Both the position numbers and the translations under genes were made by a program. Of a stretch of 54,781 bases of DNA, positions 22,809 through 51,412 are shown piece after piece; within the stretch, counting starts at the first letter, position 1; every line of letters starts with the position of its first letter. The notes under the pieces were generated by a model that worked only from the letters and a program-made list of their open reading frames with translations, ran no database searches and had not been told where the DNA came from. Source of the DNA: a virus; IMG/VR virus record IMGVR_UViG_3300021089_000283, positions 1-54,781 of that record; one strand, given 5' to 3'.

Positions 22809-22826
22809 TTTTTTAGGAGACGATAA

Positions 22827-25160: not shown

Positions 25161-26594
25161 ATGAAAACAAGTGATACTTTTTGTGCCCTTCCATGGGTAC
25201 ACCTCTCAACAAGACCGAATGGACATATGCGGGTATGTTGTACAGCAAATGCTTCCGGCGTTCAGAACCCAGACTCTCAAGATAAGATAGAATCAGACAT
25301 TGGCATTTTAAAGAATGATGATGGTATGCCTTCTAATCTTGCCAACACATCATTAGCTGATGCTTGGAATAATAACTATATGAGAGGAACACGTAAAGCA
25401 ATGATGCGTGGTGAAAAGCCTGCAAGTTGTATTAAATGTTATAAAGAAGAAGATGCAGGACATAGATCCAAGAGGATGTGGGAGACCGATAAATGGATTA
25501 AGAAACTTGGTATAGAGTCAGTATTAGAAGGATATGATCCAGAGACTGGTACAGTGCCACCACAAATCCGATACGTGGATCTTCGCCTTGGGTCTAAGTG
25601 TCAGTTAGCTTGTGTTATGTGTTCACCTAATGATTCATCGGGTTGGATAGTAGAACATAAAAAGATACATCCTAAATTAAAGAACGATAATCTAGAAAAA
25701 ACAATGCGTTGGGAGAAGGAGACAGGTAAATTAGCCTTTGTAGGTGGTAGTTATGCGTGGCATAAAAAGAATCCAATGTTCTTTGATGAACTCTATGAAC
25801 AGATACCTAAGCTAAAACAATTATATTGGGCAGGTGGTGAACCACTTGTTATGAAAGAACATTACTTTTTATTGCAACAAATCATTGATGATGGTTATGC
25901 AAGTGAGATTGAAGTGAGATATAACTCAAACGGAATGGAGTGGGAGCCTGAGCTCTTTGACTTATGGAAGCATTTTAAGGAAGTTATATTTCATTTCTCT
26001 ATTGATGACATGGAAGATAGGTTACATTATATAAGATATCCTGCAACATTCGACCATCTCACTATGAAAATGAGGGAGTTAGATAATTATCCTCATGGAA
26101 ACCTTAGGCTAACTACTGCTTATACTATACAGCTACTTAATATATGGTCTATACCAGATTTTGTTAGGTGGAAATTAACAAACAAATGGAAACTATTAAA
26201 TCAATGGCCGCAAGGTGGAGGTATGATTGATAATCATTTGGCATATTGGCCGCCCCAATTAAATTGTAAAGCATTGCCATTAGACTTTAAAAAGAAAGTA
26301 ACTGAAAAGTATGAGGCTTTCTATCCATGGTTAGAAGAGAACTGGGAATTATCTGGCGCACCTAGCAAAGAATTATTCATGGAAAACAATTATACAATAA
26401 ACCGTCTTAAAGGGATTGCATCATTTATGAATGCAGAAGATTGGTCAGTACGATTGCCTGAAACTGCTGAATGGTGTTATAGAGTTGCAGAAGAAAGAAG
26501 TCTAGACTTTGATAAGATCTTTCCAGAGTTATCTTGGTTACAAGATTATCATACGCCCCACGAAGATTTTCCGTTAGTAATTAATACTTCTTAA
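25161..26594 (+). CDS. Radical SAM protein 1, N-terminal twitch/SPASM-like domain
   Basis: 477 residues. The radical SAM [4Fe-4S] motif C-x3-C-x2-C is C147, C151, C154 (KCQLACVMC), and the SAM-contacting G-G-E is at 225-227 (YWAGGEPLV). Ahead of the barrel is an auxiliary-cluster domain: C8 (FCALPW), C24-C25 (MRVCCTAN) and C90/C93 (CIKC). I know this layout as the N-terminal-twitch radical SAM group. Members usually modify peptides or proteins by radical chemistry, but the substrate here is unknown. It is the first gene of the enzyme block. Its 3' end overlaps a convergent gene by 14 bases. Confidence 0.9.
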   Translation: MKTSDTFCALPWVHLSTRPNGHMRVCCTANASGVQNPDSQDKIESDIGILKNDDGMPSNLANTSLADAWNNNYMRGTRKAMMRGEKPASCIKCYKEEDAGHRSKRMWETDKWIKKLGIESVLEGYDPETGTVPPQIRYVDLRLGSKCQLACVMCSPNDSSGWIVEHKKIHPKLKNDNLEKTMRWEKETGKLAFVGGSYAWHKKNPMFFDELYEQIPKLKQLYWAGGEPLVMKEHYFLLQQIIDDGYASEIEVRYNSNGMEWEPELFDLWKHFKEVIFHFSIDDMEDRLHYIRYPATFDHLTMKMRELDNYPHGNLRLTTAYTIQLLNIWSIPDFVRWKLTNKWKLLNQWPQGGGMIDNHLAYWPPQLNCKALPLDFKKKVTEKYEAFYPWLEENWELSGAPSKELFMENNYTINRLKGIASFMNAEDWSVRLPETAEWCYRVAEERSLDFDKIFPELSWLQDYHTPHEDFPLVINTS

Positions 26595-27261
26595 AAGCCC
26601 AGAATTTCTCTTTACACCACCAACATTTCTTACATGGCTTTGTAAACTTCTTTGTCTTATCAGCTTGGCCTTCACAAGATCTTGTTAAAGGAAATAAACC
26701 TTTCATTAAACCTTCGCTTTCAAAGCATCTAGCTATAAATTGTTTATCATGATTAGCAAATGGCTTTGAGTTATGTTTTCTATGTGTACCATCTCTGTAT
26801 TTTGGTCTTTCATCGGTATACATATTATGCTCTTGCATAACAGGTCTTGCTGGGTTCTTTGTAACAAATCCAATATTTTCTTTTAGCTTATACTTAGTTT
26901 TATTGTTATCATATACCTTTTGCCATTCTTCATCAAGAATTCTTAAACCAACTTTAGGTGGAGTAGGTACAACAATATGTTGAAACTTCTGGGTCTTAGT
27001 TAACTTCAATTCTTTTTCAACCCAAGCCATAATCTTTTTAGCGTGTGTAACATTCCAATCTTTAGCCGCTTGCTTCTGATAACCTGGATTATCGTTTTGG
27101 TCTCTCTTCCAAGTAGCAATAACAATCTTATTCTTAAGTTTATTCTCTTTAATATGTTTGGCTATAACATATAAACCTAAAGCTGAATCAAGTCCACCGC
27201 TCACCCATAATAGTATGTTGCCAGTCTTTGGTAAATCTATTTGAACGTTCTTATAAATCAT
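26581..27261 (-). CDS. QueC-like PP-loop ATPase 1
   Basis: 226 residues on the minus strand. The PP-loop S-G-G-L-D-S at residues 21-26 binds ATP and marks the N-type ATP pyrophosphatase fold. The C-terminus has a zinc-type cysteine set C196, C210, C213, C216 (SCEG ... PCKKCWWC), the layout of QueC (7-cyano-7-deazaguanine synthase) and relatives. It is the only minus-strand gene in the first 53 kb and sits between radical SAM genes 1 and 2. It is clearly related to the gene at 34463. No queuosine/deazaguanine partners (FolE, QueD, TGT/DpdA) are visible, so it may adenylate another carboxylate. It has its own late promoter. Confidence 0.78.
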   Translation of the reverse strand: MIYKNVQIDLPKTGNILLWVSGGLDSALGLYVIAKHIKENKLKNKIVIATWKRDQNDNPGYQKQAAKDWNVTHAKKIMAWVEKELKLTKTQKFQHIVVPTPPKVGLRILDEEWQKVYDNNKTKYKLKENIGFVTKNPARPVMQEHNMYTDERPKYRDGTHRKHNSKPFANHDKQFIARCFESEGLMKGLFPLTRSCEGQADKTKKFTKPCKKCWWCKEKFWAFKKY

Positions 27262-27268
27262 ATAAATA
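27261..27268 (+). promoter_or_regulatory. T4-type late promoter, plus-strand half of a mirrored pair
   Basis: Exact TATAAATA whose first base is also the last base of the minus-strand start codon (CAT at 27259-27261). It ends 31 bases before the ATG at 27300 and would drive radical SAM genes 2-9. Confidence 0.82.
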
Positions 27269-27292
27269 ATAATAAATTGATTAACATAACTT

Positions 27293-27300
27293 TATTTATA
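27293..27300 (-). promoter_or_regulatory. T4-type late promoter, minus-strand half of a mirrored pair
   Basis: TATTTATA on the plus strand is TATAAATA on the minus strand. It ends 31 bases before the minus-strand ATG at 27261 and its far base overlaps the plus-strand ATG at 27300, so the two promoters are arranged symmetrically. Confidence 0.82.
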
Positions 27301-28643
27301 TGAAAAAAAATACCTTCTGTCCACTTCCTTGGAATTCTATTAACCTAAGAAATAACGGCGATATGCGGATCTGCTGTAATACAAACTCGTATTCACCGCA
27401 ACGTGGTATAATGAAGACTGAAGATGGTGAGACTTATAACGCTGGTAAGCATGACTTTAATGAAGCACGTAATGCACAGATATTAAAAGATGTTCGTGCA
27501 GATATGCTTAAGGGTGAATGGAATCCTGAGTGTGAACGTTGTAGACAAGAAGAGATAAACGGTATACCGTCTCGTCGTCAATATGAGAATAATGATTGGG
27601 AAATAAAATTAGATACAGCTATTCCAATGACTCAGGAAGATGGAACTCTTGATGTAGATAAACAACTAATAGAATTTATTGATATACGTTATGGTAATTT
27701 CTGTAATCTTAAATGCAGAATGTGTGGGCCAACTGATTCTCATATGTGGTACCCAGACTTTATTAAACTTACAGACGGTAAGGTAACATCATATAAAGAT
27801 ACGCATACTCGTATACAACTTGAACAAACATCGACTGGCAAATGGACTACAGACCAATATGATTGGTTTAAAGATGCTCCTATTTACTGGGACAACTTTG
27901 AAAAGTATGCGCATGATGCAAAGAAACTTTATATTGTTGGTGGTGAACCTTTAATTATTGCTGAACATGAGAAGAGTTTACAGTTATTAGTTGATGGTGG
28001 TAAAGCACATAACATAGAGATAGAGTATAATTCTAATCTAACAAATGTAACAAACAAATACATAGAGCTATGGTCACAGTTTAAACAGATTCGTGTCGGT
28101 GCATCTGTTGATGGATTTGGTAAAGTATTTAATTATCAGCGTACGCCAGCTAAATGGGAATCTGTATATGAGCATATGAAAAAGCTAAATGATAATCGTG
28201 AAGTAAATCTAAAATGTTGGTTTACATTTACTGTTACACCTTATAATGTATATCATATGCCTGAGTTTATGAAATGGAAATTAGAAGAGAGTGAGTTAGA
28301 TAGATATAATCCTATCGATGGTATGAGACCAACCATAACTCAACACATGTGTCACTCCCCTAAGTACTATAATATTAAAGTATTACCGCAACATCTTAAA
28401 GATGACATTGAAGATCATTATGAATTATACAAATCATGGGTTGACGGTAGTAATTATTCAGATAAAGTTAAAGCACATTTCCATGAGGTATGTGATAGCA
28501 CAATAAGATTTATGCAGTCCGAGTCTTATGAAAAAGATCACCTACAAGGATTCATAGATATAACAAATAAATTAGATAAGATACGAGGTCAAGATGTAAG
28601 GGAAATTGTTCCTGAATATATCGAAATGTTCGATGCGCACTAA
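27300..28643 (+). CDS. Radical SAM protein 2, N-terminal twitch/SPASM-like domain
   Basis: 447 residues. Radical SAM motif C135, C139, C142 (FCNLKCRMC); G-G-E at 214-216. The N-terminal auxiliary domain has C7 (FCPLPW), C25-C26 (MRICCNTN) and C78/C81 (ECERC). It is a paralogue of protein 1 with the same domain order. The start has no ribosome binding site; the ATG lies 31 bases after its late promoter. It opens a run of tightly overlapping genes with no gap above about 20 bases until 43592, consistent with one very long late operon. Confidence 0.9.
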   Translation: MKKNTFCPLPWNSINLRNNGDMRICCNTNSYSPQRGIMKTEDGETYNAGKHDFNEARNAQILKDVRADMLKGEWNPECERCRQEEINGIPSRRQYENNDWEIKLDTAIPMTQEDGTLDVDKQLIEFIDIRYGNFCNLKCRMCGPTDSHMWYPDFIKLTDGKVTSYKDTHTRIQLEQTSTGKWTTDQYDWFKDAPIYWDNFEKYAHDAKKLYIVGGEPLIIAEHEKSLQLLVDGGKAHNIEIEYNSNLTNVTNKYIELWSQFKQIRVGASVDGFGKVFNYQRTPAKWESVYEHMKKLNDNREVNLKCWFTFTVTPYNVYHMPEFMKWKLEESELDRYNPIDGMRPTITQHMCHSPKYYNIKVLPQHLKDDIEDHYELYKSWVDGSNYSDKVKAHFHEVCDSTIRFMQSESYEKDHLQGFIDITNKLDKIRGQDVREIVPEYIEMFDAH

Positions 28644-29820
28644 ACCATATTGTAAGGCTCCATGGGTTGGATTATCTTATGTAGGAACTGAAGGTTGCAA
28701 GCCATGTTGTGAATGGAAAGGTGGCCAGTTCTTTGGCACTCATAAAGAATATATTGAATCAGATTACTTAAAAGAATTTAAGGAAATGATGTACAATGAT
28801 GATATGAATGAGGCATGTATAGAATGTATTCATAATGAAAAGATTCAAAAACTAGGCGGGTCGAGAAGACAGCGGTTCATGAAATATGATATTGATGGTG
28901 GATTAGTAAGGTTAGATTTTAGGGCTGGAAATAAATGTAATATGAAATGTAGAATGTGTGGTTCACATTCATCATCTCTTTGGGAAGACGAAGATATTAA
29001 GTGGGGATCAAATGTATATTTAGATCCACCTCATGTTATTCCAAGATTAGATACATCAGATGTATATAATATCGATTTCACATCTTTGCAGAAAGTTATG
29101 ATTCTAGGCGGTGAGCCTTCAGTTGATTTAGAAGTAAGAAAGTTTATAGATCATATTAAACATCTAGATTGTTTTGTTGGTATAACTACTAATTGTTCCA
29201 ACGCATCTGAGAAATGGTTTCGTTCATTAGAAACTATTAAAAAATTAGAGCTTGATTTGTCAATAGATGGCTGTGGTCCTGTAGCAGAATATCAAAGGCA
29301 TGGTGTTACTTGGGATAAGATCAAAACTAATCTATGGAAATATAAAGCATTATTTAATGGAGATAAAGGTGCTGTTCAAATAGATGATATTATGTATCAC
29401 AATTCACTTACGAGGTGGAAAGATGCAAATGGCACATGGGGTGATGCTCATATAAACTTTGCAGTAACTGCAATTAACTTTCCTATATTAGATACATGGT
29501 GGGATGAGTTAATGGATTTTGAAATACAAACATTTTTTAGTGTAGTTCATTTGCCATTGTCACATAGCATAAATGCAATACCAAAAGAATATTTAGATTA
29601 TCAAATAGCTTGGTTAAAGAAATGGATTGATGACGGTAAAGCAAATAATATTAACCGTAAACAAGCTGCTGAGATGGCTATAAGTGTAATGGAAAATTCA
29701 AAGTATGATCTGTTTTGTCATGAACAATTTGTAAAGATAACAAAAGAATTGGATAAGCGAAGGGATGAAAATATATATGATTTAGATGAAAGGTTTGAGG
29801 ATATAATGAATGAAAGATAA
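28633..29820 (+). CDS. Radical SAM protein 3, N-terminal twitch/SPASM-like domain
   Basis: About 395 residues from the ATG at 28633, chosen because family alignment begins at MRTKPYCKAPW; an upstream ATG at 28606 would add nine residues inside the previous gene. Auxiliary cysteines C7, C22, C25-C26 and C62/C65; radical SAM motif C102, C106, C109 (KCNMKCRMC); G-G-E at 159-161 (LGGEPSV). The linker between auxiliary domain and barrel is shorter than in proteins 1 and 2. It overlaps both neighbours by 11 bases. Confidence 0.88.
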   Translation: MRTKPYCKAPWVGLSYVGTEGCKPCCEWKGGQFFGTHKEYIESDYLKEFKEMMYNDDMNEACIECIHNEKIQKLGGSRRQRFMKYDIDGGLVRLDFRAGNKCNMKCRMCGSHSSSLWEDEDIKWGSNVYLDPPHVIPRLDTSDVYNIDFTSLQKVMILGGEPSVDLEVRKFIDHIKHLDCFVGITTNCSNASEKWFRSLETIKKLELDLSIDGCGPVAEYQRHGVTWDKIKTNLWKYKALFNGDKGAVQIDDIMYHNSLTRWKDANGTWGDAHINFAVTAINFPILDTWWDELMDFEIQTFFSVVHLPLSHSINAIPKEYLDYQIAWLKKWIDDGKANNINRKQAAEMAISVMENSKYDLFCHEQFVKITKELDKRRDENIYDLDERFEDIMNER

Positions 29821-31012
29821 TGGTGTAATATGCATGTTGCCTTGGGTTCATACCACCGTGAGTATGAAAAATACTTTGCGGCCTTGCTGTAGATTTAGAG
29901 TGGGTAGAGAAGATGAAGGTATAACCGCTGACTCTGAATCAGATATTAAAGATAAATTTAGATGGTTACGTACAGAAATGTTAGCAGGCAGACCTGTAGA
30001 GAAGTGTTCATTGTGTTATCAACAAGGTGACAAGTCTATGAAGTGGACAGCTAATAAAGAATTTGATTTAGAAAATGCAGAGCTTACAGAAGATTTTGAT
30101 AAGCTAAGGTCAGTAGAATTATCCCTAGATAACCTATGTAATCTTCAATGCAAGATGTGTGATTCATTATTCTCAAGTAAGTTATATGATAGGGACAAGT
30201 ATCTAATAGAGGTACATAATCTTAAAGGTAGAAACCCAACAAAGATACCTAAACAAAGAATTGAATTCCTCAAGGGCCTTGATATAGATTGGCATGCATT
30301 AGAACATATTAAAATTCTTGGTGGTGAACCATTCTTCTCACCTAATTTCCCTAAGCTAATTGATTTTCTATTAGAACATTCTGAAGTAAAGAATGTCACA
30401 TTAGAGATTGTAAGCAACTGTACAAATAGATTAGATCAAGATATGATTGATAAATTAAATCAATTTGGGTTTATAATACTTACATGTTCTCTTGATGGCT
30501 GTAATGAATTTAATACATATCAAAGATGGGGTTCACCTGGATGGGAGGAGACATTAGATACCTATAAGTGGTATCATACAGTGTTAAACAATATGGTTAA
30601 AAAACATATACATTCCACATATACTATTCTTAATTTGTCTGGTCTTGCAAATGATATGAAATACTGGGAAAATAATCACCCTGACTGGTCAGTGTCATTT
30701 AACTTTGTTACTACAGGTGAATACTCTCCATACATTGTTCCGACATGGTATAGAGATTGGATATTAGAACAATGGGGAGATAAAGACAACGAGAGAATAA
30801 CTTTAGCTCGTAAGATGTTACGAGAAAATCAGATTAAATATAAACCATGGAAGACATGGGGATTAGCTATGTTAAAGCTTCATGCCATTGACGGCTATTA
30901 TGATTCTGAATTAGGTGACTATTGTCCTGATCTAGAAATGTTATTATTAAAACACGATAAGACATATCAACATAATCAATACTATGAAACAATAGAGGAC
31001 TTTGATGTTTGA
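29810..31012 (+). CDS. Radical SAM protein 4, N-terminal twitch/SPASM-like domain
   Basis: 400 residues. Auxiliary cysteines C8 (CMLPW), C26-C27 (RPCCRF) and C66/C69 (CSLC); radical SAM motif C110, C114, C117 (LCNLQCKMC); G-G-E at 171-173 (LGGEPFF). The C-terminal part after the barrel is Trp/Tyr-rich and lacks a second auxiliary cluster. The ATG lies inside the end of the upstream gene. Confidence 0.9.
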   Translation: MKDNGVICMLPWVHTTVSMKNTLRPCCRFRVGREDEGITADSESDIKDKFRWLRTEMLAGRPVEKCSLCYQQGDKSMKWTANKEFDLENAELTEDFDKLRSVELSLDNLCNLQCKMCDSLFSSKLYDRDKYLIEVHNLKGRNPTKIPKQRIEFLKGLDIDWHALEHIKILGGEPFFSPNFPKLIDFLLEHSEVKNVTLEIVSNCTNRLDQDMIDKLNQFGFIILTCSLDGCNEFNTYQRWGSPGWEETLDTYKWYHTVLNNMVKKHIHSTYTILNLSGLANDMKYWENNHPDWSVSFNFVTTGEYSPYIVPTWYRDWILEQWGDKDNERITLARKMLRENQIKYKPWKTWGLAMLKLHAIDGYYDSELGDYCPDLEMLLLKHDKTYQHNQYYETIEDFDV

Positions 31013-32111
31013 ATTAGAAACATGCTTAGCTCCACAAGCATCCGTTACAGTAAGTCAAAAAGGTTATATAGCTCCATGTTGCCAGTTTAATCTTTGGCCG
31101 GAAGATGAATGGTTTAGTATATATGATTTAGATTCATTACATGAAGCACATGGTACAGATCGGTGGAACAAATATGATTCAGAGCTATCTAAATATGATG
31201 GCAGTAATAAATGTCGTACATGTATTCGTGAAGAAGAATCAGGGGCACATTCTTTAAGACAGACTTGGAATGAAAAGATAAAAAAAGAAGATAAGCATAT
31301 AGAACATTTAGAAATCTCATTAGACTTTACATGTAATATGATGTGTAGATCTTGTGGACCAAGTCAAAGTTCTAAATGGAATGGCAGTTCAATACTAGAA
31401 GAATTGCAAATGTTAAATATGCCAGATAATGAAGGTGCATATACTGCAATTAAAAACCCTAGAAATTATCAAGATAATATCAAACGTGTTCTTAGTAATA
31501 CAGATCTATCGCACTTAAAAGAAGTAACATTAGTAGGTGGTGAACCATTATATTCTAAAAGCTTACCTTGGTTTCTTAGTTTATTGCATGAAGATGTTCG
31601 GCTTATAGTTGTTACTAACGGAAGTTTATTACCATCCGATGAGATGTTTTCTAAATTTAAATATGTTAAATTCCAAGTATCTATTGATGCTATTGGAGAT
31701 TTAGGAACTGCAATGAGAATGAAAGTTCCATTTGAAACCATTGATAAAAACATTAGACAGATGATAAAGAAATATCATATTGGTGTCCACACAACCATTT
31801 CTGTACAGAATATAAATAGACTATACGAGCTTGATAAATATTGTGTAAATTTAGGACAGGAGAAGGTACAACATAGCGTTGCATTGCTGCACGATCCTTC
31901 ATATATGAGAATAGATATCATACCTCTTGAAATTAGAATGAAGTGGTTAACTGATAATAAGGAAATAAATCCGTATTTAAATATGCCATATAGAGAATCA
32001 ATAAGTGATGTGCAACACTTTTTAGAAAATATGGAAATAATGGATGATGAATCATCAATTAAATTTAAAGATGCTAACCCAGAAATAATGGATATACTAA
32101 ATGAAATGTAG
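31005..32111 (+). CDS. Radical SAM protein 5, N-terminal twitch/SPASM-like domain
   Basis: 368 residues from the ATG at 31005, which has AGAGGA six bases upstream and overlaps the previous stop by eight bases. Auxiliary cysteines C7 (CLAPQ, where other members have P-W), C25-C26 (APCCQF) and C70/C73 (CRTC); radical SAM motif C110, C114, C117 (TCNMMCRSC); G-G-E at 178-180 (VGGEPLY). A TATAAATA at 31811 inside the gene is probably chance. Confidence 0.89.
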   Translation: MFELETCLAPQASVTVSQKGYIAPCCQFNLWPEDEWFSIYDLDSLHEAHGTDRWNKYDSELSKYDGSNKCRTCIREEESGAHSLRQTWNEKIKKEDKHIEHLEISLDFTCNMMCRSCGPSQSSKWNGSSILEELQMLNMPDNEGAYTAIKNPRNYQDNIKRVLSNTDLSHLKEVTLVGGEPLYSKSLPWFLSLLHEDVRLIVVTNGSLLPSDEMFSKFKYVKFQVSIDAIGDLGTAMRMKVPFETIDKNIRQMIKKYHIGVHTTISVQNINRLYELDKYCVNLGQEKVQHSVALLHDPSYMRIDIIPLEIRMKWLTDNKEINPYLNMPYRESISDVQHFLENMEIMDDESSIKFKDANPEIMDILNEM

Positions 32112-33294
32112 AATGGCATGGTCGCACTTAGACTTTAAGAAGGGAGGATATGCTCCCTGTTATAGGTTTAAAAATTATGCTGGATATTGGGATCACTCTA
32201 GTGATGATAAGCTTCCATCTCAAGTAATAAATAATTCAGATTTTATATCTGTTAGAAGACAACTACGTAATAACCAATGGCCCAAAGGTTGTATCGATTG
32301 TAAACGTCAAGAGTCAGAAGGTATGTCCTCATATAGAACTCGTTCATTGGAAGAAGAGGATGATGTTAATCGTACCAATAAAGTATTTACTCCTGTAGAT
32401 TATGATAGTGACACTGCTGTAATAAAAGATTTACAATTAAAAATGTCGCGAGCATGTAATTATAATTGCAGACATTGTGACTCAGCATCTAACTCTTCAT
32501 TTGAAAAACTAGGTCATCAATTTCCTGAGATAGAGAATGAATTAAAAACTAAATATGAATTTAATCACATATCAATGGCAGGTAATAATAAAATTGTTAT
32601 ACCAACCGATGAAGTTATGGATGATCTATTTGAAAATATTATGCCTACTGTTGAACAACTTGAATTTTCTGGCGGTGAACCATTTTATCAACATGAAATG
32701 TATAAGACATTACAGAGATTGATTGATGGTGATTTTGCTAAGAATATAACATTAGTGTTTAATACTAATATGAGTATATTAGAGCATAAGAAATATAAGA
32801 TAGCAGATTATCTGCCTCACTTTAAAACAGTTAATATCACATGTTCTATGGATGGTACAGGTAAACTGTTTGATTACTTTAGAGTTGGTGGAGACTATAA
32901 TAATGTTATAAATAATATTAAAGAGATTGCACCATTAGTAGATACATTTTTATTCGTATGTACAACAAGTGCATATCATGCCTTCTATATGAATGAAATA
33001 TATAATGATCTAACTGAATTGCAAAACTCTATTAAAACAAAATCATCTATAAGATCAACGTTTGTACATTGGCCTAAAGCGTTAGATATTATTAATTTAG
33101 AAGAAGATGTTAAAAGTAAAATTATGGAAACATTAGAAGTGAATGAGTTTACTAAAGAGTTTGCTATACGAATGACTCAATCTAAAGGCGAAATTGAGCC
33201 TTGCTTTAAAGGATTAGTAAAGACTCAAGATCTATTATATGATAAATCATGCCAAGAAATGGCTCCTAAAATTTGGGATTATATATGCAGTTAA
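32101..33294 (+). CDS. Radical SAM protein 6, diverged N-terminal auxiliary domain
   Basis: 397 residues. Radical SAM motif C119, C123, C126 (ACNYNCRHC); G-G-E at 191-193 (SGGEPFY). The auxiliary domain is shortened: C3 (CRMAW), a single C20 (APCYRF, where paralogues have Cys-Cys) and C64/C67 (CIDC). Loss of one of the paired cysteines still leaves four possible ligands. It overlaps the upstream stop by 11 bases and the next gene by 10. Confidence 0.88.
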   Translation: MKCRMAWSHLDFKKGGYAPCYRFKNYAGYWDHSSDDKLPSQVINNSDFISVRRQLRNNQWPKGCIDCKRQESEGMSSYRTRSLEEEDDVNRTNKVFTPVDYDSDTAVIKDLQLKMSRACNYNCRHCDSASNSSFEKLGHQFPEIENELKTKYEFNHISMAGNNKIVIPTDEVMDDLFENIMPTVEQLEFSGGEPFYQHEMYKTLQRLIDGDFAKNITLVFNTNMSILEHKKYKIADYLPHFKTVNITCSMDGTGKLFDYFRVGGDYNNVINNIKEIAPLVDTFLFVCTTSAYHAFYMNEIYNDLTELQNSIKTKSSIRSTFVHWPKALDIINLEEDVKSKIMETLEVNEFTKEFAIRMTQSKGEIEPCFKGLVKTQDLLYDKSCQEMAPKIWDYICS

Positions 33295-34463
33295 CTATTG
33301 AAGTAACATCTAATTGTCAAGCTCAATGCCCTGGTTGTATTCGTAAGAATGTTATAAACCCAACTACTGGAGAAATAGGTTATACTAAAGGTGTTCCTAA
33401 GAATGTTAACATGACCCTTGAAGCACACAATAGATTAATAGATGAGGCAGGAGAAGATTTAAATTGGGTAAGTTATGACGGTGGATTCGGTGATTCACCA
33501 TTGCATCCAGACTTTTTAGATATGATAAGACATGTTGTGTCTAAACCACAAATGCAAATCGTTGCTATATCAACCAATGGAAGTTATCAAACCGAAGAAT
33601 TTTGGTTTGAGTTAGGACAGATACTTAATGAAAATCAACCACATGACCCAGAATATTTCGGTGACTTACCACGAATGGAGAGAGGCCATTTAGTATTTTG
33701 GGATTTAGATGGTGTTGATAATGAAACACAAAATAAATATAGGGTTAAAACAAATTTTGATAGGATCATCCGTAATGCTAAAGCTTATATAGCTGGTGGT
33801 GGTTATGCTGTATGGAAGATGATTCCATTTGACTTCAATGAAGAATTAGAAGAGCGTGGAATGGAGTTAGCTAAAGAGCATGGCTTTGCTGAGTTTAGAA
33901 GAACACGTGTACATAGAGTAGAACAACAAGCAACGTTAATGGCATTAGCTGAAAAGCAAGGACAAGACTTAGGAGATCTTAACGATGGTGAAATAGACAG
34001 GGCTGATCCAGCTGACATTAAAGAAAATATAGAAAAAGCTCAAACATTAATACAAGAGATTCCAATAGATCCTTATAAATCTCCACGAGAAAATATGGCG
34101 GTAGCTAAAGAGAAAGCTGGCATTACATGTAAGTGGGCAAACGATACTCCTGGTGGTAATTACCAAGTAAGCCATGATGGTTCTGTATGGAGATGTTGTT
34201 GGCATAACTCAGCCTATCAATTTAGAACGAGATTAAATAGTGGTGATAGAGATGGGTGGGAAAGGTTTATACAATTCTATGCGGATGACTGGAATAACAT
34301 ATATACTAATAGCTTCCAAGAAATTATAACTCATCCGTTTTTTACAGAAGATTTGTATGAAAGTTTTGATAATGATTATGATGATCCTATTAATCCGAAG
34401 TTAAAGGTATGCACTAACAGGTGCTCTAATTTAAATTTACAAGAAAGTGAGAGGTTTTGCTAA
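33285..34463 (+). CDS. Radical SAM protein 7, C-terminal SPASM-like domain
   Basis: 392 residues from the ATG at 33285 (MQLTIEVTSNC). The radical SAM motif is at the very N-terminus: C11, C15, C18 (NCQAQCPGC). The G-G-E is replaced by a YDGGFGDSPLHP segment (about 65-76). The auxiliary-type cysteines are at the C-terminus: a Cys in ITCKWAN, C304-C305 (WRCCWH), C376/C380 (CTNRC) and a final Cys. The order of barrel and auxiliary domain is thus opposite to proteins 1-6. It precedes the second QueC-like gene, overlapping it by one base. Confidence 0.87.
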   Translation: MQLTIEVTSNCQAQCPGCIRKNVINPTTGEIGYTKGVPKNVNMTLEAHNRLIDEAGEDLNWVSYDGGFGDSPLHPDFLDMIRHVVSKPQMQIVAISTNGSYQTEEFWFELGQILNENQPHDPEYFGDLPRMERGHLVFWDLDGVDNETQNKYRVKTNFDRIIRNAKAYIAGGGYAVWKMIPFDFNEELEERGMELAKEHGFAEFRRTRVHRVEQQATLMALAEKQGQDLGDLNDGEIDRADPADIKENIEKAQTLIQEIPIDPYKSPRENMAVAKEKAGITCKWANDTPGGNYQVSHDGSVWRCCWHNSAYQFRTRLNSGDRDGWERFIQFYADDWNNIYTNSFQEIITHPFFTEDLYESFDNDYDDPINPKLKVCTNRCSNLNLQESERFC

Positions 34464-35362
34464 TGATAAAAGATAAAAGTATAATATATAATAAAGATGA
34501 AATAGTTGAAGAATGGAATATAGAATTAAATTTAGACTATGACCATTTATTAGTTGGCATGTCAGGAGGAATGGATTCATCTATTCTATATTGGATGATG
34601 GCCTATCATATGGATAAGAATAATTTAAGTGGAACACTACATGCATATTCATGTATCCATGAAGAGAGACCATGGCAAGCACATCACGCTAAGAAAGTAA
34701 TTAAATATGTGAAAGAACAATTTCCTAATATTAAATATGGAGTACATACAATTGCGACTACGCCTGGAACATCTTATATTGATAATGGTACTGCACTACA
34801 ATGGAAGACAAGCTATGAGTTAGCGCAAAGCGATGGTGGAACTGTAGCTACGTATAATGGTGTGACACTTAACCCACCAGACGAATTAGGTAAATATATA
34901 TGGCGACACTCATGGGGTAGACGTGCTGTCGGAAGAGATGTATCTACACTTGACAAATGGGAAAAGGTTGATGGTGAACAGATAGAACATAACAACGAAG
35001 ATTTTTTTGTGAAGGCTGGTTTACATTGGGAAGAAGATGGTTCGCTTGTACATTGGGGAACAAATGATGAAGAGCAGGAACAAGCAGCGAGAGATCATAA
35101 CGAATATCATATTCAGCATTATCCATTTTGTACTCAAGATAAACGTGTAGTACTTGCATTCTATAAGAAGTATGGACAATTAATATCTTTAGGAGAATTA
35201 ACTAATTCATGTGAGGGTCATATTAGTATGAGAGGTGATCCTAAATATTCCAAGCCTTGTCATTGGTGTTGGTGGTGTATAGAAAAAGAATGGGCTACAA
35301 GCGAAATCTTTCACTATGATCCAATAAAGAGTATGGAAGACTGGCCAGCATTTCATAACTAA
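34463..35362 (+). CDS. QueC-like PP-loop ATPase 2
   Basis: 299 residues from the ATG at 34463, with GAGAGG eight bases upstream; it overlaps the previous stop by one base. PP-loop S-G-G-M-D-S at residues 34-39; zinc-type cysteines C250, C266, C269, C272 (SCEG ... PCHWCWWC) match those of the minus-strand gene at 26581, including the unusual C-W-W-C. The middle carries an extra ~60-residue insert relative to that copy. It lies between two C-terminal-SPASM radical SAM genes, so it is more likely part of their pathway than a stand-alone tRNA or DNA base enzyme. Confidence 0.78.
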   Translation: MIKDKSIIYNKDEIVEEWNIELNLDYDHLLVGMSGGMDSSILYWMMAYHMDKNNLSGTLHAYSCIHEERPWQAHHAKKVIKYVKEQFPNIKYGVHTIATTPGTSYIDNGTALQWKTSYELAQSDGGTVATYNGVTLNPPDELGKYIWRHSWGRRAVGRDVSTLDKWEKVDGEQIEHNNEDFFVKAGLHWEEDGSLVHWGTNDEEQEQAARDHNEYHIQHYPFCTQDKRVVLAFYKKYGQLISLGELTNSCEGHISMRGDPKYSKPCHWCWWCIEKEWATSEIFHYDPIKSMEDWPAFHN

Positions 35363-36411
35363 TGTATAGCTACTCTGACATAAGACAGGTTCATCTTGAG
35401 CCGACGCAGAAGTGTCAGGCTAGATGTCCTATGTGTGATAGGAATGAAAACGGTGGTAAAGATAATAAGTATCTAACTAATGCCGACCTATCCTTAATGG
35501 ATATAAAAATGATTATGCCTAAAGAATTTGTAAGGCAACTTGATAATCTCTATATGTGTGGTAATCATGGTGACCCTATGATGGCACCCGAAGCATTAGA
35601 AATATGTAAATGGTTAAAGGAAGTAAACCCAAAGATTAGACTTGCAATGAATACAAATGGTGGTGCAAGAAGACCAACATGGTGGGCAGAGCTAGCACAA
35701 GTTATTGACCATGTAACATTCTCTGTTGATGGTCTTGATGATACTAATCATCTATATAGACAAGGAGTAACTTGGGAAAGAGTTGAAGCTAATATGCATG
35801 CGTTCTGTAGAGCTGGTGGTAATGCTAAATGGGAATTTTTAGTATTCAAACATAATGAACATCAACTGGAAGAGGCCGAATTATGGTCAAAGACACTAGG
35901 GGTAAAAACGTTTAGCGTAAAGAAATCAGGTAGATATATTTCTAGCGCTACTTTAAAAAAGAAAGATTCACATCAAGCAAAGGATAGACATGAACAACAC
36001 ACACAACTCTTGGAGCCACCTACTATGGCGCGCTTTAAGAACGCCGCAAGTAAAGACTTTGATAATATCACTGCTAAATTTGGCAACATGGATTCTTATT
36101 TGGATGTGGCTGACATAGAACCGAAATGTATAAAGAAGAAAGAAATATATATTTCAGCTGAGGGATATGTATTCCCTTGTTGTTGGACCGCTGGTCAAAT
36201 GTATAAATGGTGGCAAAAACCAGGTGAGGCACAGATATGGGAACACATAGATCAGTACGATATTAATGGAATCACTACACCTATAGAAGAAATTATAAAT
36301 ACTTTTTTTAATTCAATAGAGGAAGCATGGGAAGTTGGGCCGGACCGATTAAAGGTTTGTGCTCTCAAATGTAATAAAGCATTTGACCCATTCGCAGCAC
36401 AATGGCAGTAA
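35362..36411 (+). CDS. Radical SAM protein 8, C-terminal SPASM domain
   Basis: 349 residues; the ATG overlaps the previous stop. Radical SAM motif C18, C22, C25 (KCQARCPMC) after the typical HLEPTQ strand. In place of G-G-E it has CGNHGDPMMAP (about 71-81), as in many SPASM enzymes. The C-terminal SPASM-type set is a Cys in PKCIKKK, C273-C274 (FPCCWT) and C333/C337 (CALKC). It is most similar in layout to protein 7. SPASM enzymes typically modify ribosomally made peptides or proteins; the substrate is not evident. Confidence 0.89.
   Translation: MYSYSDIRQVHLEPTQKCQARCPMCDRNENGGKDNKYLTNADLSLMDIKMIMPKEFVRQLDNLYMCGNHGDPMMAPEALEICKWLKEVNPKIRLAMNTNGGARRPTWWAELAQVIDHVTFSVDGLDDTNHLYRQGVTWERVEANMHAFCRAGGNAKWEFLVFKHNEHQLEEAELWSKTLGVKTFSVKKSGRYISSATLKKKDSHQAKDRHEQHTQLLEPPTMARFKNAASKDFDNITAKFGNMDSYLDVADIEPKCIKKKEIYISAEGYVFPCCWTAGQMYKWWQKPGEAQIWEHIDQYDINGITTPIEEIINTFFNSIEEAWEVGPDRLKVCALKCNKAFDPFAAQWQ
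36294..36301 (+). promoter_or_regulatory. Possible intragenic late promoter
   Basis: TATAAATA inside radical SAM gene 8, about 100 bases before the gene at 36402. It is followed by a T-run, not a leader with ribosome binding site. It may give internal transcription of the glycine-loop genes or be chance. Confidence 0.3.
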
Positions 36412-37070
36412 TAGCATGGACGCCTGGAATGGGTGGTGATATGATTCGCACATGTCTTATGTGTTTGACAACTCCTGGTAAATGGGAATATAAACCTGCT
36501 CGTCCTGAATTTTATGAAGAGAATAAACTGGCTTTACACTTTCAAGGATTTTGGGATGTATTATATCTTGATAATAAGTTTGTAAGCTTTATTGATTGGA
36601 GAGGACAAGCGCAAACAAAATTAGGTGAAGGAACTATACATGGTGCACATTATATTGAATCAAACCAAGATACAATAGATAATGTTATGGATTCTGGTAA
36701 AGGTCATGTAACCTTTATAACTGTTAATGATATACGTTATTTAAAGTTAGCACAAAAGAATTGGTTAATGAAGTCTAGTGTTACAGATGGAGATAAGAAT
36801 AGTATAGCTTGGTGGGACAATGAATATGAAAAAGCATTTATTAGGCGGCAGCAAATATATGAACCTAATAAGAGTTTATTTGATTTGGGTGATAGAAAGC
36901 ATTGTTTCTGGATGGATACAATTTATAAATGGGAATCATTTAAACAAGAGCTAGATAATTATATAGGCTTTTATGATATACCATTTGAAGAAAGACAATA
37001 TAAGAATTGGGATATAGTACAAAAATTTTGGCAGGAATGGATGGATGCGCAGAGGTTACCATGGCAATAG
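36402..37070 (+). CDS. Glycine-loop protein, possibly sulfotransferase/P-loop-like, copy A
   Basis: 222 residues. It begins with a strand, a P-G-M-G-G-D loop (residues 8-13, IAWTPGMGGDMIRTCL) and a helix, the layout of a phosphate-binding loop. It shares with the next gene a VNDIRYLKLAQKNW segment (about 107-120), a GDRKHCFWMD segment (about 164-173) and the ending KFWQEWMDAQRL, so the two are tandem duplicates. Whether it is a sulfotransferase, kinase or something else cannot be decided by eye. It overlaps neighbours by about 10 bases on each side. Confidence 0.55.
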   Translation: MAVIAWTPGMGGDMIRTCLMCLTTPGKWEYKPARPEFYEENKLALHFQGFWDVLYLDNKFVSFIDWRGQAQTKLGEGTIHGAHYIESNQDTIDNVMDSGKGHVTFITVNDIRYLKLAQKNWLMKSSVTDGDKNSIAWWDNEYEKAFIRRQQIYEPNKSLFDLGDRKHCFWMDTIYKWESFKQELDNYIGFYDIPFEERQYKNWDIVQKFWQEWMDAQRLPWQ

Positions 37071-37867
37071 GAAATAAAATAGTTTTATCTTGGCCTCCTG
37101 GTACAGGCGGGGATTTTGTACGGTCTTGTCTATATGTAATTATGCATCATGGTAATTGGGAATACAGGCAATGGGAAGAACATGAAGAACCTATTGACGG
37201 CTGGACTGAGATTAGTGCTGATCCATATCCTAAGGCTCTAGTATGGAATAATAATCTTATATCTTTTATTGATTACAAAGGACAAGTACAGTCACCTGTT
37301 ATGTGGAAACATTTTAGATGGAATGAATTTCTTGAGGGCAAGAAAAATGAATTAGGTATTACTGCTTTAAAAGCAGATTTATATAGACTTGTATTTTGTA
37401 TTCATAAACGTCATCATACAGAAACTAATGTTGACCAATTAATGGAAATTCAGAATGAAGCATATAGACTTGATGATTTAAACCCAGTCGTTACATATAT
37501 TTGTGCCAAGGATACTAAGTATCTTAGATTAGCACAAGAAAATTGGAATTTAAAAACTCATGAATATAATCATTATATTGCTAATCAAGAAATAAATTGG
37601 TGGGATACAGCGCTAGCTGAGACTATTGATTGGAGAGATAGAAACCCAGAGAAAATTAATCATACTTTATTTGAGTTTGGTGATAGAAAACATATGATGT
37701 TTATGGATAGCTTTTTTGAATGGGAAACATTCAGACAAGAATTAGAATGGTTTAGGGGGTTTTATCATAACGCAGGTTGTATGCCAGTGCAAAATGATGC
37801 CCATTGGTATGTAGTTAAACAATTTTGGCAGGAATGGATAGATGGACAAAAACTTAAAGTGGAGTGA
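37061..37867 (+). CDS. Glycine-loop protein, possibly sulfotransferase/P-loop-like, copy B
   Basis: 268 residues from the ATG at 37061 (MAIGNKIVLSWPPGTGGDF), which has AGAGG five bases upstream; an in-frame ATG at 37007 would add 18 residues of no family character. The glycine loop P-P-G-T-G-G-D is at residues 12-18. It shares CAKDTKYLRLAQENW, FGDRKHMMFMD and the ending QFWQEWIDGQKL with the preceding gene and carries an extra ~45-residue central insert. It lies inside the radical SAM run, so it is likely to act in the same pathway. Confidence 0.55.
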   Translation: MAIGNKIVLSWPPGTGGDFVRSCLYVIMHHGNWEYRQWEEHEEPIDGWTEISADPYPKALVWNNNLISFIDYKGQVQSPVMWKHFRWNEFLEGKKNELGITALKADLYRLVFCIHKRHHTETNVDQLMEIQNEAYRLDDLNPVVTYICAKDTKYLRLAQENWNLKTHEYNHYIANQEINWWDTALAETIDWRDRNPEKINHTLFEFGDRKHMMFMDSFFEWETFRQELEWFRGFYHNAGCMPVQNDAHWYVVKQFWQEWIDGQKLKVE

Positions 37868-38972
37868 GTATGACTTCGGTCAAATACCTTTCGACGATAT
37901 AGAGCATTTTGGCACACGTTCTATGCTGGATAGGGACACGTTTACAGTATCTTGGTTACTAGGAAGATTCTGTAATTACCGTTGTTCTTATTGTTGGCCT
38001 TATGCTAGGTCAGATAAGAAAGACCATAGACCACTTAAAGCAACTATAGGAACTATTAATGAAATCAAAAGACAAGCAAGAGAAAGAGGATTTAATTCGT
38101 TTCACTTCTCACTTTCGGGAGGCGAACCGACATTTCATCCGCAGTACCTCGATATTGTACAGCATCTTAATAATGATGTTCCTAATTGTAATTTTCATTC
38201 CCTTCACATGACCTCAAATGTTTCTCGACCAATACAATGGTTTGAGAAATATTATCAAGCCTCAAAGGATATGCATAGAGTATCTATTACAGCTTCTTAC
38301 CATAGGGAACATGTCAATACTCCAAAGAAGGTTATTGAGTTTGCAGACAAATTAGAATTTTGTCAAGAACATAATATACAGATTACTATTAATATAGTTA
38401 TGGTACCTGAATTCTTTGAACAATTTTATGAGGAGGCATTATACTTTCATGATCGTGGTATTAATGTAACGCTTAAACCTCAGAGTGATCCGACAGCTTC
38501 ATTCGTTGTAGATGGATATACAGATGAACAGTTAAAGACTCTACATAATGGAATGCCTCAAAGGGGATATACTCAGGAAAAATCTACAGTAGAAAGACCT
38601 CATTATAAATGGAGAGATGCTGCGGTAGATAATAAGTATGGCAAAGTACCTGCCCACTTTGAAATAGAATTCACTGACAAGTACGGGAAGAAATGGTATA
38701 TGGATCAGGCAGAAAGATTCAATGCCTTTAACTTTAATAACTTTAATGGATGGGAATGCTCATCAGGTTATAGAAGTATTATTATACGTGAACCAGATGG
38801 TACAATCAAAAGAAGTTATTCTTGTCATGATGAACCATTAGGTCAAATAGAAACTGGGTTTAAGTTATATGATGGACCCAAGATATGTACAACAAGCGCA
38901 TGTGTATCTTCAGCTGATAGCAAGATACCTAAACGCAAACCAGGAAATATGATACCATTATGGACAGTGTAG
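37842..38972 (+). CDS. Radical SAM protein 9, classical barrel
   Basis: 376 residues. Radical SAM motif C44, C48, C51 (FCNYRCSYC); G-G-E at 93-95 (LSGGEPTFHP); later strands include LHMTSNVS and ITINIVMVP. It lacks the N-terminal auxiliary domain of proteins 1-6. Scattered C-terminal cysteines (NGWECSSG, SYSCHDE, KICTTSACV) could bind an extra cluster. It forms the end of the radical SAM run and overlaps the upstream gene by 26 bases and the next by 13. Confidence 0.9.
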   Translation: MDKNLKWSEYDFGQIPFDDIEHFGTRSMLDRDTFTVSWLLGRFCNYRCSYCWPYARSDKKDHRPLKATIGTINEIKRQARERGFNSFHFSLSGGEPTFHPQYLDIVQHLNNDVPNCNFHSLHMTSNVSRPIQWFEKYYQASKDMHRVSITASYHREHVNTPKKVIEFADKLEFCQEHNIQITINIVMVPEFFEQFYEEALYFHDRGINVTLKPQSDPTASFVVDGYTDEQLKTLHNGMPQRGYTQEKSTVERPHYKWRDAAVDNKYGKVPAHFEIEFTDKYGKKWYMDQAERFNAFNFNNFNGWECSSGYRSIIIREPDGTIKRSYSCHDEPLGQIETGFKLYDGPKICTTSACVSSADSKIPKRKPGNMIPLWTV

Positions 38973-39313
38973 ACCTTTTTGGTCAAAAAGGTCGATACCG
39001 TCAGGACGGTGTAGAAGGGCCTTTTGGGCCAATAGAAAAATACCCACCTATTATAAAGACAACACCTAATGTGCCGGTCGACCAGCCAGGTGTGGAAGGC
39101 CTTATAAATACTTTTGAGATGAGAGAACTTCAGCTTGAAGCTGCGTTAGTTATAAGCTCACATAATGCAAACAATATTTGGATAAAACAATTTAAGGCAG
39201 ATCATAACTCGGAGGAATTTTATAAGAATGTCATCAGATGGTATATTAATGAATACGGAGGACTTCCTAGCGAAGTCGAACCCGGAAATAAAATACAACT
39301 TCTTTACGTTTAA
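38960..39313 (+). CDS. Hypothetical protein
   Basis: 117 residues. The first 50 are Gly/Pro-rich and probably unstructured (YRQDGVEGPFGPIEKYPP), and the rest is helical (LQLEAALVISSHNANNIWIKQF; EEFYKNVIRWYINEYGG). I do not recognise it. It is locked into the operon by a 13-base overlap upstream and an 86-base overlap with the next glycosyltransferase gene if that gene starts at 39228. It could be a small adaptor or a peptide substrate of the radical SAM enzymes; there is no direct support for either. Confidence 0.5.
   Translation: MDSVDLFGQKGRYRQDGVEGPFGPIEKYPPIIKTTPNVPVDQPGVEGLINTFEMRELQLEAALVISSHNANNIWIKQFKADHNSEEFYKNVIRWYINEYGGLPSEVEPGNKIQLLYV
39103..39110 (+). promoter_or_regulatory. Possible intragenic late promoter
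   Basis: TATAAATA inside the 117-residue gene, 117 bases before the glycosyltransferase start at 39228. It could give extra late transcription of the downstream genes, or be a chance Leu-Ile-Asn coding stretch. Confidence 0.35.
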
Positions 39314-40037
39314 GTGGGGAGATAAATATGGACCAGAATATGTTAATAGATTATACGCGAGTCTGGTAGAACATTGTGATGTTCCTTTTGCTTTCACTTG
39401 TGTTACTGACAATAGTGCTGGGATACGTCCTGAAGTACTTCTTTTAGATTACAATCAAATAGGTCCAGACTCTTGGAGATCTTACGGTCAAGATAAGATT
39501 TTTACTCGTGAGAAACTTTGTCTTATGGATCTAGATATTCCCGGCACAAAAGGTTGGATTGATTTAGATGTATTGATTAGAAAAGAAGTCACATCTATGG
39601 TGACTAGAGACTTTAAGAAGCCTACCTTTATTCTTAATCATTGGAATATGAAAAAAGAAAATTCATTCAAATGGTTTGGTAAAGGATCTGACTGTCATGT
39701 GAATAGTAGCTTTGTAATGTGGAAAGATGATGTTGCGCAATGGTTGTTTGATTATACTGACAAGCATTTAGAGAAGCTAATGTTCACTTATAAATCCTTA
39801 GATAAATACTTATATTACCAACATTGGCGTACAGATAGATTAACATTTTGGGAAGAGGGATTAGTAGATAACTTTAATTTTAGTGATCCGCCTCATATAA
39901 AAAGGAAAGGAGTGAGAGTAACTTTATTTAATACCTCACATATTATTATACAAGGCATGGATATAGAAGCATACGAGTTACATGAAACAGAAGGTATGTG
40001 GCCGTGGGAATATTGGATGAAATATGACAAAAGTTGA
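39228..40037 (+). CDS. Glycosyltransferase-like protein (KWGDKY family)
   Basis: 269 residues from the ATG at 39228, which has GGAGGA about 11 bases upstream; an ATG at 39249 is an alternative, and the family match begins only at FFTFKWGDKYGPEY (about residue 25). Metal-binding D-L-D is at 112-114 (WIDLDVLI), with another D-L-D at 98-100. It is a paralogue of the gene at 19248 in the tail cassette, tying the two clusters together. Acceptor unknown. Confidence 0.7.
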   Translation: MSSDGILMNTEDFLAKSNPEIKYNFFTFKWGDKYGPEYVNRLYASLVEHCDVPFAFTCVTDNSAGIRPEVLLLDYNQIGPDSWRSYGQDKIFTREKLCLMDLDIPGTKGWIDLDVLIRKEVTSMVTRDFKKPTFILNHWNMKKENSFKWFGKGSDCHVNSSFVMWKDDVAQWLFDYTDKHLEKLMFTYKSLDKYLYYQHWRTDRLTFWEEGLVDNFNFSDPPHIKRKGVRVTLFNTSHIIIQGMDIEAYELHETEGMWPWEYWMKYDKS

Positions 40038-43592: not shown

Positions 43593-43595
43593 ATA
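43588..43595 (+). promoter_or_regulatory. T4-type late promoter, predicted leaderless
   Basis: Exact TATAAATA overlapping the end of the TauD-like gene A and ending five bases before the ATG at 43601. No ribosome binding site lies between. Confidence 0.8.
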
Positions 43596-43600
43596 TAACT

Positions 43601-44236: not shown

Positions 44237-44237
44237 T

Positions 44238-50953: not shown

Positions 50954-50957
50954 AAAT

Positions 50958-51404: not shown

Positions 51405-51412
51405 TATAAATA
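51405..51412 (+). promoter_or_regulatory. T4-type late promoter with long leader
   Basis: Exact TATAAATA one base after the lipoprotein stop. The next ATG is 109 bases away and preceded by AAGGAG. Confidence 0.75.

Follow-up and report, generated by a model that had tools for sequence, protein, structure and literature searches.

Nine radical SAM genes in a T4-like marine phage form a constrained core, shared with Bdellovibrionota, and a variable periphery

Why would a phage carry nine radical S-adenosylmethionine (SAM) genes side by side, and on what could their products act? The question is raised by positions 25161–38972 of the IMG/VR record IMGVR_UViG_3300021089_000283, a virus record of 54,781 bases which we analyzed at full length (hereafter the window). 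An earlier note, made from its sequence alone, had described nine diverged and mostly overlapping genes of this kind behind the tail fiber genes, with late promoters and companion genes that looked like a biosynthetic or protein-modification pathway. The most economical reading of our results, and one we hold tentatively, is a late tailoring pathway with a fixed core and variable decoration, for a product shown at the attacker's surface.

The motif C-x3-C-x2-C was found in nine open reading frames between 25161 and 38972, and GGEP in seven of them (25161, 27300, 28606, 29810, 31002, 32101 and 37842; not 33273 or 35362), the same counts as in the earlier note. All nine matched the Pfam Radical_SAM model (PF04055) with E-values of 7e-6 to 2.6e-15, which is far beyond chance; seven exceeded the gathering score of 29.5 bits and two fell just under it (28.2 bits for 28606 and 26.7 bits for 33273), so the concern raised in that note, that most might lack a radical SAM domain, proved unfounded. 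The first six (rSAM1–6, Table 1) passed the curated 170-bit cut-off of NF033640, a family with an N-terminal twitch for which we know of no assigned reaction, and a six-frame search gave the same six. The other three are not members by this cut-off, with 60.6 bits for rSAM8, 36.8 bits for rSAM9 and no reported match for rSAM7. By inspection, all nine proteins have extra cysteine sets outside the radical SAM motif, with sub-threshold Pfam SPASM matches in two. In rSAM1 the cysteines are C8, C26/C27 and C90/C93, followed by the motif C147-C151-C154 and GGEP from residue 225; the extra ones are conserved among its orthologs, and all are invariant in a 49-row alignment except C27, which is nearly so. 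The extra cysteines of rSAM7 are at residues 286, 308, 309, 380 and 384. In profile searches none of the nine proteins reached the cut-off of a maturase model for ribosomally synthesized and post-translationally modified peptides (RiPPs), of QueE, or of viperin (NF038283, cut-off 180 bits; best score 42.9 bits, for rSAM9).

The description of the genes as paralogous yet diverged is borne out by identities to rSAM1 of 19–31% among the six N-twitch proteins. The layout is also as described: with the likelier ATG starts (28633, 31005, 33285, 34463 and 37061), all 11 plus-strand junctions between 27300 and 39313 overlap, by 1–26 bases, 8 of them by 8–13 bases. The block additionally holds two PP-loop genes, of which one is encoded on the minus strand, and the two glycine-loop paralogs of Table 1, for which Pfam gave no match. 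A further protein, encoded at 17881–19251, also has an N-terminal glycine-rich loop and resembles these paralogs by eye; no family was found for it or for the proteins of 36402–37070 and 37061–37867.

Comparison with related contigs revealed that rSAM1, rSAM2, rSAM8 and rSAM9 are strongly constrained, whereas rSAM3, rSAM5, rSAM6 and rSAM7 evolve faster or are replaced, and rSAM4 is mixed. The constrained four keep 85–100% amino-acid identity in four related contigs, and in the three more distant of these four their dN/dS is 0.05–0.13 (rSAM1, 0.06–0.09; rSAM2, 0.08–0.13; rSAM8, 0.09–0.10; rSAM9, 0.05–0.11). The corresponding values for rSAM6 and rSAM7 are 0.18–0.27, in a plain Nei-Gojobori count in which a dS of about 1 or above makes the ratios of the variable genes unreliable. 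In related contigs identity is 46–49% for rSAM3 (three contigs), 60–72% for rSAM6 (three) and 55–78% for rSAM7, while rSAM5 has only paralog-level matches (23.5–25.3%, three contigs); rSAM4 has 89% identity and a dN/dS of 0.11 in one contig and 46–50% identity in two. Recent tandem duplication was considered as the origin of the array and rejected: of 852 radical SAM proteins from 121 loci, 838 are closest to a radical SAM protein encoded on a different contig and 11 to one on the same contig. Near-duplicate contigs had been removed from this set only in part, which favors the former count.

The same genes stand out in reciprocal best hits. In 101 other phage contigs (95 viral contigs and six phage-like bins) hits were obtained for rSAM1 in 96, rSAM8 in 87, rSAM9 in 65, rSAM2 in 52 and each of the others in 16–30; the figure for rSAM1 means little, since 89 loci were seeded by rSAM1 or its paralogs and most others by a PP-loop protein. 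In 19 bacterial loci the numbers were 18 for rSAM1, 14 for rSAM8, 13 for rSAM9, 7 for rSAM2 and 0–1 for the others, with one rSAM1 hit (32.5% identity) and one rSAM9 hit (26.0%) being distant. rSAM8 has reciprocal best hits in both phages and Bdellovibrionota. For rSAM9, 135 columns are invariant in a 13-row alignment, and the window's protein is 57–69% identical to 11 of the 12 other rows and 90% identical to the twelfth.

The array is linked to a phage genome. PHROG matches identify T4-type baseplate wedge genes to its left, and together with a VrlC homolog, which is 35% identical to VrlC of HTVC008M and would mark the VrlC-side border of a pelagimyophage host recognition cluster, they characterize the window, and the window only, as a T4-like myovirus. 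Its position right after the tail fibers is as the earlier note had stated: the gene at 20277–22808 has a PHROG tail fiber match, the one at 22827–25106 clusters with it, and rSAM1 follows from 25161. That note had also named bacterial DNA joined to a phage contig as a possible source of the block. We rejected a chimera or bacterial insert because a record that belongs to a different dataset (3300034695_000088) contains the block again and is 98–99% identical over 17641–54308, with a short gap near 29.4 kb; against this record most genes have too few changes for dN/dS. The 94-kb record 3300003937_000144 matches nearly the entire window at 99.9% identity and is possibly not independent, as its dataset yielded a second near-identical contig. 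Three further records match the window piecewise at 74–91% identity. At the right end, 53215–54780 (minus strand) encodes a protein with CHASE2 and adenylate/guanylate cyclase domains, which could mark a junction with host DNA; as the match to 3300034695_000088 runs to 54308, this gene is linked to the phage too.

How widespread are such arrays? They recur across viral contigs. A motif search seeded by six paralogs returned at least 600 stretches, at least 588 of them confirmed, and an rSAM9-seeded search returned at least 599, at least 525 of them confirmed. When 50 of the 114 loci of the first survey were searched as whole records, 40 had five or more NF033640 matches, with a maximum of 21. 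Forty-eight of 80 rSAM9-seeded loci, picked for length (41–382 kb) and mostly outside the first survey, were also searched whole: every one holds 5–22 NF033640 matches, 47 have one over the cut-off, and rSAM1 is present in 43. Within 10 kb of rSAM9 in the 80 loci, rSAM2 was found in 54, rSAM1 in 48 and rSAM8 in 38. Fiber-side gene clusters occur in 44 of 89 rSAM1-seeded loci (27 of the 54 loci of at least 18 kb). Among 50,697 named phage records, rSAM9 had no match at 1e-5, and rSAM1 had three weak matches, rSAM2 three and rSAM8 four; two plasmid records have an rSAM9 relative of 24–25% identity. One viral record of 381,886 bases has rSAM1, rSAM9 and 13 NF033640 matches, and in three records (G215, G216 and G220) frames of 889 residues encode a tandem pair of N-twitch radical SAM domains.

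The core is also found in bacteria. A scan of genome contigs, limited by its patterns, gave 27 loci, of which 18 are titled Bdellovibrionales, Bdellovibrionia, Bacteriovoracaceae, Halobacteriovoraceae or Oligoflexia, one comes from an unnamed bacterium and eight are in bins of other groups; the label Bdellovibrionota is taken throughout from the titles of metagenome-assembled genomes, and L143–L145, L147, L154, L156, L168 and L169 were set aside as phage-like or fragmentary contigs within bins of other groups. rSAM1, rSAM8 and rSAM9 all occur in Bdellovibrionota bins, and rSAM9 is 55–62% identical to that of the window in 12 of 19 bacterial loci. Several loci lie in long contigs among housekeeping-like genes (ligA, gatAB, dnaG, rpoD, asd, dapA and pheST, as read from their first residues). 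NF033640 is over its cut-off in 18 of 19 such genomes, phage-like bins included, with up to 42 matches in one. In 114 genomes from the phylum of one Bdellovibrionia bin, NF033640 is over the cut-off in 30, rSAM1 is present in five and rSAM9 in six, and five have both on one contig; three of these five (G054, G059 and G064) were known carriers beforehand, one rSAM9 runs off the end of its contig, and two rSAM9 matches show one internal stop, which is probably the gene's own end. GT2-like glycosyltransferases were noted in 11 of 23 bacterial loci or regions (two overlapping; three confirmed by Pfam). In the Bdellovibrionales contig G068:C21 (L183, 120000–139884), pheST-like genes lead straight into rSAM1, rSAM9 and a phage fiber-side module (fiber-side c11, c8, c4 and c7, the methyltransferase/GTdep cluster and radical SAM genes), which is a transferred module or a phage remnant.

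When might these genes be expressed? The window holds 21 copies of TATAAATA, which we take to be the T4 late motif; 11.8 are expected, and 1 of 100 shuffles reached as many as 21. The coding strand carries 19 copies and the opposite strand 2. The bias recurs in 100 phage loci (128 coding versus 55), and 16 Bdellovibrionota loci have no coding-strand bias (16 versus 22). A divergent pair at 27261–27300 has each copy 39 bases before a start, that of 26581 (minus strand) and that of 27300 (plus strand). The copy before 25161 is only 13 bases away, so a transcript from it would have almost no leader. These observations suggest that the pathway is probably expressed late, along with the virion genes.

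The predicted structure of rSAM1 (AlphaFold2; pLDDT 88.2, pTM 0.88) makes its class sure, not its substrate. Foldseek returned partial matches only (TM by query 0.2–0.34), and a PDB search with rSAM9 gave weak matches to anSME, viperin and MoaA.

The companion genes are consistent with tailoring chemistry, as the earlier note had surmised: among them are QueC-like PP-loop proteins, oxygenases of TauD and Asp/Asn hydroxylase type, and a methyltransferase fold. For the protein of 40458–41225, nearly all of the 50 Foldseek matches listed are SAM methyltransferase folds (best E 5.4e-8); a PDB search with its family profile gave no match. The neighboring protein of 39228–40037 has no Pfam or PHROG match of its own and clusters with that of 19248–19907, which matches phrog_1962 (glycosyltransferase); calling its family (GTdep) glycosyltransferases is a reading of a DGD motif, to which Pfam, PHROGs and PDB add no support. 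The two families were first joined by fusion proteins into one cluster (78 contigs) and then split into GTdep and MTnts. The methyltransferase family is present in 76 and GTdep in 64 of 95 phage contigs; 10 proteins, overlapping loci included, contain both, and two GTdep-type domains and a methyltransferase are fused in proteins of up to 1222 residues. The 74-residue small protein occurs in 50 of 89 rSAM1-seeded loci, and a PDB search with it returned engineered, antibody or chance chains only. In the phage contigs, PLP (pyridoxal phosphate)-type proteins were found in 25, nitroreductases in 20, and carbamoyltransferase, amidinotransferase-like, B12-radical SAM and UDP (uridine diphosphate)-sugar dehydrogenase proteins in 8–12 each, where the cluster names amidinotransferase, PLP and epimerase are partly readings and not all profile results. 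In the window itself the desaturase, the methyltransferase and the second hydroxylase are below Pfam cut-offs, and the PLP label is a reading without a Pfam match. The four TauD-type oxygenases span 42645–47265; within this region two stretches of 114 bases (45119–45232 and 45915–46028) are 81% identical, and the TauD gene at 46468 is 65% identical to one of Pelagibacter phage Mosig.

Table 1. Coordinates of the radical SAM block and its surroundings in the window.
Feature	Position	Strand	Remarks
VrlC homolog	5617..10725	+	1702 aa; 36% to putative VrlC of Pelagibacter phage Mosig
Tail fiber genes (two)	20277..25106	+	Immediately upstream of rSAM1
rSAM1, core "anchor", N-terminal twitch	25161..26594	+	NF033640 380 bits
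QueC-like PP-loop protein a, divergent	26581..27261	-	SGGxDS and cysteine set; no own Pfam match
rSAM2, N-terminal twitch, near-core	27300..28643	+	NF033640 364 bits
rSAM3, N-terminal twitch, variable	28633..29820	+	NF033640 170.2 bits (0.2 over); mechanical start TTG 28606
rSAM4, N-terminal twitch, mixed	29810..31012	+	NF033640 187.5 bits
rSAM5, N-terminal twitch, variable	31005..32111	+	NF033640 179.8 bits
rSAM6, N-terminal twitch, variable	32101..33294	+	NF033640 227 bits
rSAM7, C-terminal cysteine set, no GGE, variable	33285..34463	+	Pfam 26.7 bits, under gathering score
QueC-like PP-loop protein b	34463..35362	+	ATP_bind_3 22.2 bits (under gathering score); TilS_N E 5.5e-6
rSAM8, core, C-terminal cysteine set	35362..36411	+	Pfam 48.4 bits
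Glycine-loop family paralog 1	36402..37070	+	38% identical to 37061..37867; no Pfam/PHROG match
Glycine-loop family paralog 2	37061..37867	+	Paralog of 36402..37070
rSAM9, core, most conserved	37842..38972	+	Pfam 57.4 bits
Conserved small protein (74-aa family, here N-terminally extended)	38960..39313	+	Alignment
Glycosyltransferase-like, by cluster only (GTdep)	39228..40037	+	Clusters with 19248–19907
Methyltransferase-fold protein (MTnts family)	40458..41225	+	AlphaFold2 pLDDT 83.5
Companions: desaturase-like, PLP-type (no Pfam match), four TauD, 2-oxoglutarate oxygenase, nitroreductase	41216..52220	+	Pfam
Further companions: Asp/Asn hydroxylase-type, FMN (flavin mononucleotide) reductase, methyltransferase-like	41216..52220	+	Pfam

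In the tailoring pathway that we propose, the core would consist of rSAM1, rSAM8 and rSAM9, in many cases rSAM2, and probably the protein with the methyltransferase fold. It would make or attach a common modification through radical chemistry, with a second iron-sulfur site in each enzyme. The periphery (rSAM3–7, the two QueC-like ATP-dependent enzymes, the oxygenases and the transferases) would then decorate that modification differently in each phage. The product would most likely be displayed on the phage fibers or another part of the virion, and, in the Bdellovibrionota with this core, most likely also on the cell surface. Bdellovibrio bacteriovorus displays phage-like fibers, one of which binds prey surface glycans, in the available part of PMC10769870.

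Several results weigh against this proposal. No substrate, precursor or product was identified for the array, and VIA-align, which barely covers the N-terminal part of rSAM1 and does not separate substrate classes, produced a tie among DesII, BlsE, MoaA, SkfB and a viperin-like enzyme (Z 10.4–10.8). The late-type motif lies within 100 bases upstream of 24 of 632 radical SAM genes (5 reversed) versus 53 of 1084 others (10 reversed), and near the core types in only 2/78, 2/38, 1/70 and 0/53 cases; because it is no commoner before radical SAM genes than before others, it marks late-type regions and not these genes specifically. The late promoters of the earlier note are supported to the extent that late-type motifs are biased to the strand of the block. 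Within 10 kb of rSAM9 the methyltransferase was found in 11, the small protein in 9 and GTdep in 6 of 80 loci, and fiber-side genes in just 5, while half of the rSAM1-seeded loci show no fiber-side gene. A VrlC-type PHROG was detected in 1 of the 48 rSAM9-seeded records, where it is weak and partial, and in 7 of 30 first-survey records chosen for this search, one of them weak. Strong VrlC scores are limited to the window's relatives and a few others, and since those relatives score strongly the search itself works; the arrays therefore seem spread over several phage lineages, with the pelagimyophage-type place confined to the window and a few others. Together the VrlC counts and the fiber recount weaken a general fiber link. 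In the Bdellovibrionota loci examined, fiber-side profiles are absent except in G068, so the link to Bdellovibrio fibers is an analogy.

Because the fiber link is not general, remodeling of the infected-cell envelope follows close behind. In this alternative, which we consider possible and yet somewhat unlikely, the island alters lipopolysaccharide (LPS), an O-antigen-like glycan or lipid A, thereby excluding other phages or changing how the cell is recognized, much as the consulted part of PMC7029224 argues for the glycosyltransferases of the host recognition cluster. It requires no fiber link, which many loci lack, and the desaturase-like, UDP-sugar dehydrogenase, epimerase-like and aminotransferase companions resemble tailoring enzymes of surface sugars or lipids. 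The PagP-annotated gene near five radical SAM genes with the N-twitch profile in Vibrio phage K566 points the same way, as do the GT2 and O-acyltransferase genes of the Bdellovibrionota loci. However, the late-type motif bias and the place in the structural region of the window would be odd for early exclusion, and the window has no clear set of LPS glycosyltransferases. Radical SAM enzymes with SPASM/twitch domains are a hallmark of RiPP pathways, and the RiPP maturase SkfB is the only PDB sequence match of rSAM1 below 0.001 (E 2.5e-4). A diffusible RiPP-like peptide or small-molecule natural product, such as a toxin or signal, is nevertheless decidedly unlikely to be what the array makes: no maturase model reached its cut-off, no precursor-like peptide was noticed (peptides below 60 residues and exporters were not searched for), and the 74-residue family is conserved to near its C-terminus, unlike the leader and variable core of a precursor.

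It appears improbable that the radical SAM genes are auxiliary metabolic genes that serve iron-sulfur metabolism or host metabolism in general and have collected in a hypervariable region, although the accessible part of PMC5332604, on a 183-kb T4-like marine genome, treats its 12 radical SAM genes as belonging to iron-sulfur-related metabolism. The pairing of rSAM1 with rSAM9 suits one pathway: it was seen in 43 of 48 viral records and, among the 114 bacterial genomes, in each of the five with rSAM1 (one more has rSAM9 alone). We regard modification of phage DNA or nucleotides, as deazaguanine-type hypermodification or viperin-like antiviral nucleotides, as more improbable still. A QueC-like PP-loop protein is present in 44 of 89 rSAM1-seeded loci (the 59 contigs counted overall are inflated by seeding) and within 10 kb of rSAM9 in 36 of 80, a QueD family in 5 of 24 large records, and there are weak matches to the viperin profile. 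Against this, QueD was not found in the other 19 records, which are fragments and include the window's 94-kb relative, and no QueE or viperin cut-off was reached among the nine. PF06508 (QueC) is over its cut-off in 2 of the 24 large records; neither PP-loop protein of the window matches it, and most island matches are below the cut-off, with one island relative passing at 24.4 bits.

The proposed tailoring pathway could be one instance of a wider system, a suggestion we consider unlikely as it stands: a transferable surface chemistry of attackers, common to phages and Bdellovibrionota, in which the conserved core would write a common scaffold and an exchangeable set of up to about 20 further radical SAM enzymes would add decoration particular to each lineage, on fibers or surface glycans. 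Were this so, chemistry and not only protein sequence would diversify host or prey recognition, many uncultured phages, with records of up to 382 kb, would give over tens of kilobases to radical chemistry, and the core enzymes of those phages would also serve relatives of predatory bacteria. Such a system would make rSAM1 and rSAM9 a conserved entry point to an enzyme set almost absent from the records of named phages, and would connect the variable regions of phages with chemical modification in a testable way.

How does the array compare with known systems? With the SPASM/twitch maturases SkfB, SuiB and anSME it shares the radical SAM core and an extra cysteine set, and rSAM1 aligns with them mainly over the radical SAM part; in contrast to them, six of the nine proteins carry the extra set at the N-terminus, and no precursor was found. 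The PP-loop proteins resemble QueC (PF06508) in their SGGxDS loop and cysteine set, and a 19-row alignment keeps both SGGxDS and C..C-x2-C-x2-C, whereas VPxRN and YPDC, among the canonical QueC motifs given in the part of PMC13329287 available, were not seen in it by eye. Vibrio phage K566 has its five N-twitch-profile genes within 25 kb (155000–180000), with no core type in that stretch, and identity to K566 and K567, the latter known from a sequence match only, is 22–24% where tblastn aligns. Between its fibers and VrlC, Pelagibacter phage Mosig EXVC030M has desaturase, PLP-type, TauD, hydroxylase-type, FMN reductase and methyltransferase genes as in the window, and three genes annotated as molybdenum cofactor enzymes (MoaA-type); it differs in having no N-twitch array in the 24 kb examined, and only parts of rSAM8 and rSAM9 align, weakly, at 22.9% and 24.7% identity.

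Radical SAM cassettes of such phages are already in print, without a function in the consulted parts of these sources. The earlier note knew of no described phage pathway with as many radical SAM enzymes, a claim overtaken by the 12 of PMC5332604 and by the cassettes of PMC7029224, whose pelagimyophage host recognition cluster, from VrlC to gp14, contains glycosyltransferases and radical SAM-related cassettes. Radical SAM genes were also enriched alongside glycosyl- and methyltransferases in Tasman Sea samples (PMC7150976), again with no function in the part consulted, and a literature search of limited scope found nothing on such arrays beyond the papers cited. Like the systems of PMC5332604 and PMC7029224, the window is a T4-like marine myovirus, and with the cluster of the latter it shares the VrlC border, the tail fibers and variable cassettes that include radical SAM genes. 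As far as their consulted parts go, those two papers name the genes only, with no core or periphery, bacterial counterpart or radical SAM subfamily. What is new here is the exclusion of recent duplication, the split in constraint between core and periphery, the sharing of the core with Bdellovibrionota, the lack of rSAM9 matches among 50,697 named phages, and the co-occurrence of rSAM9 with rSAM1.

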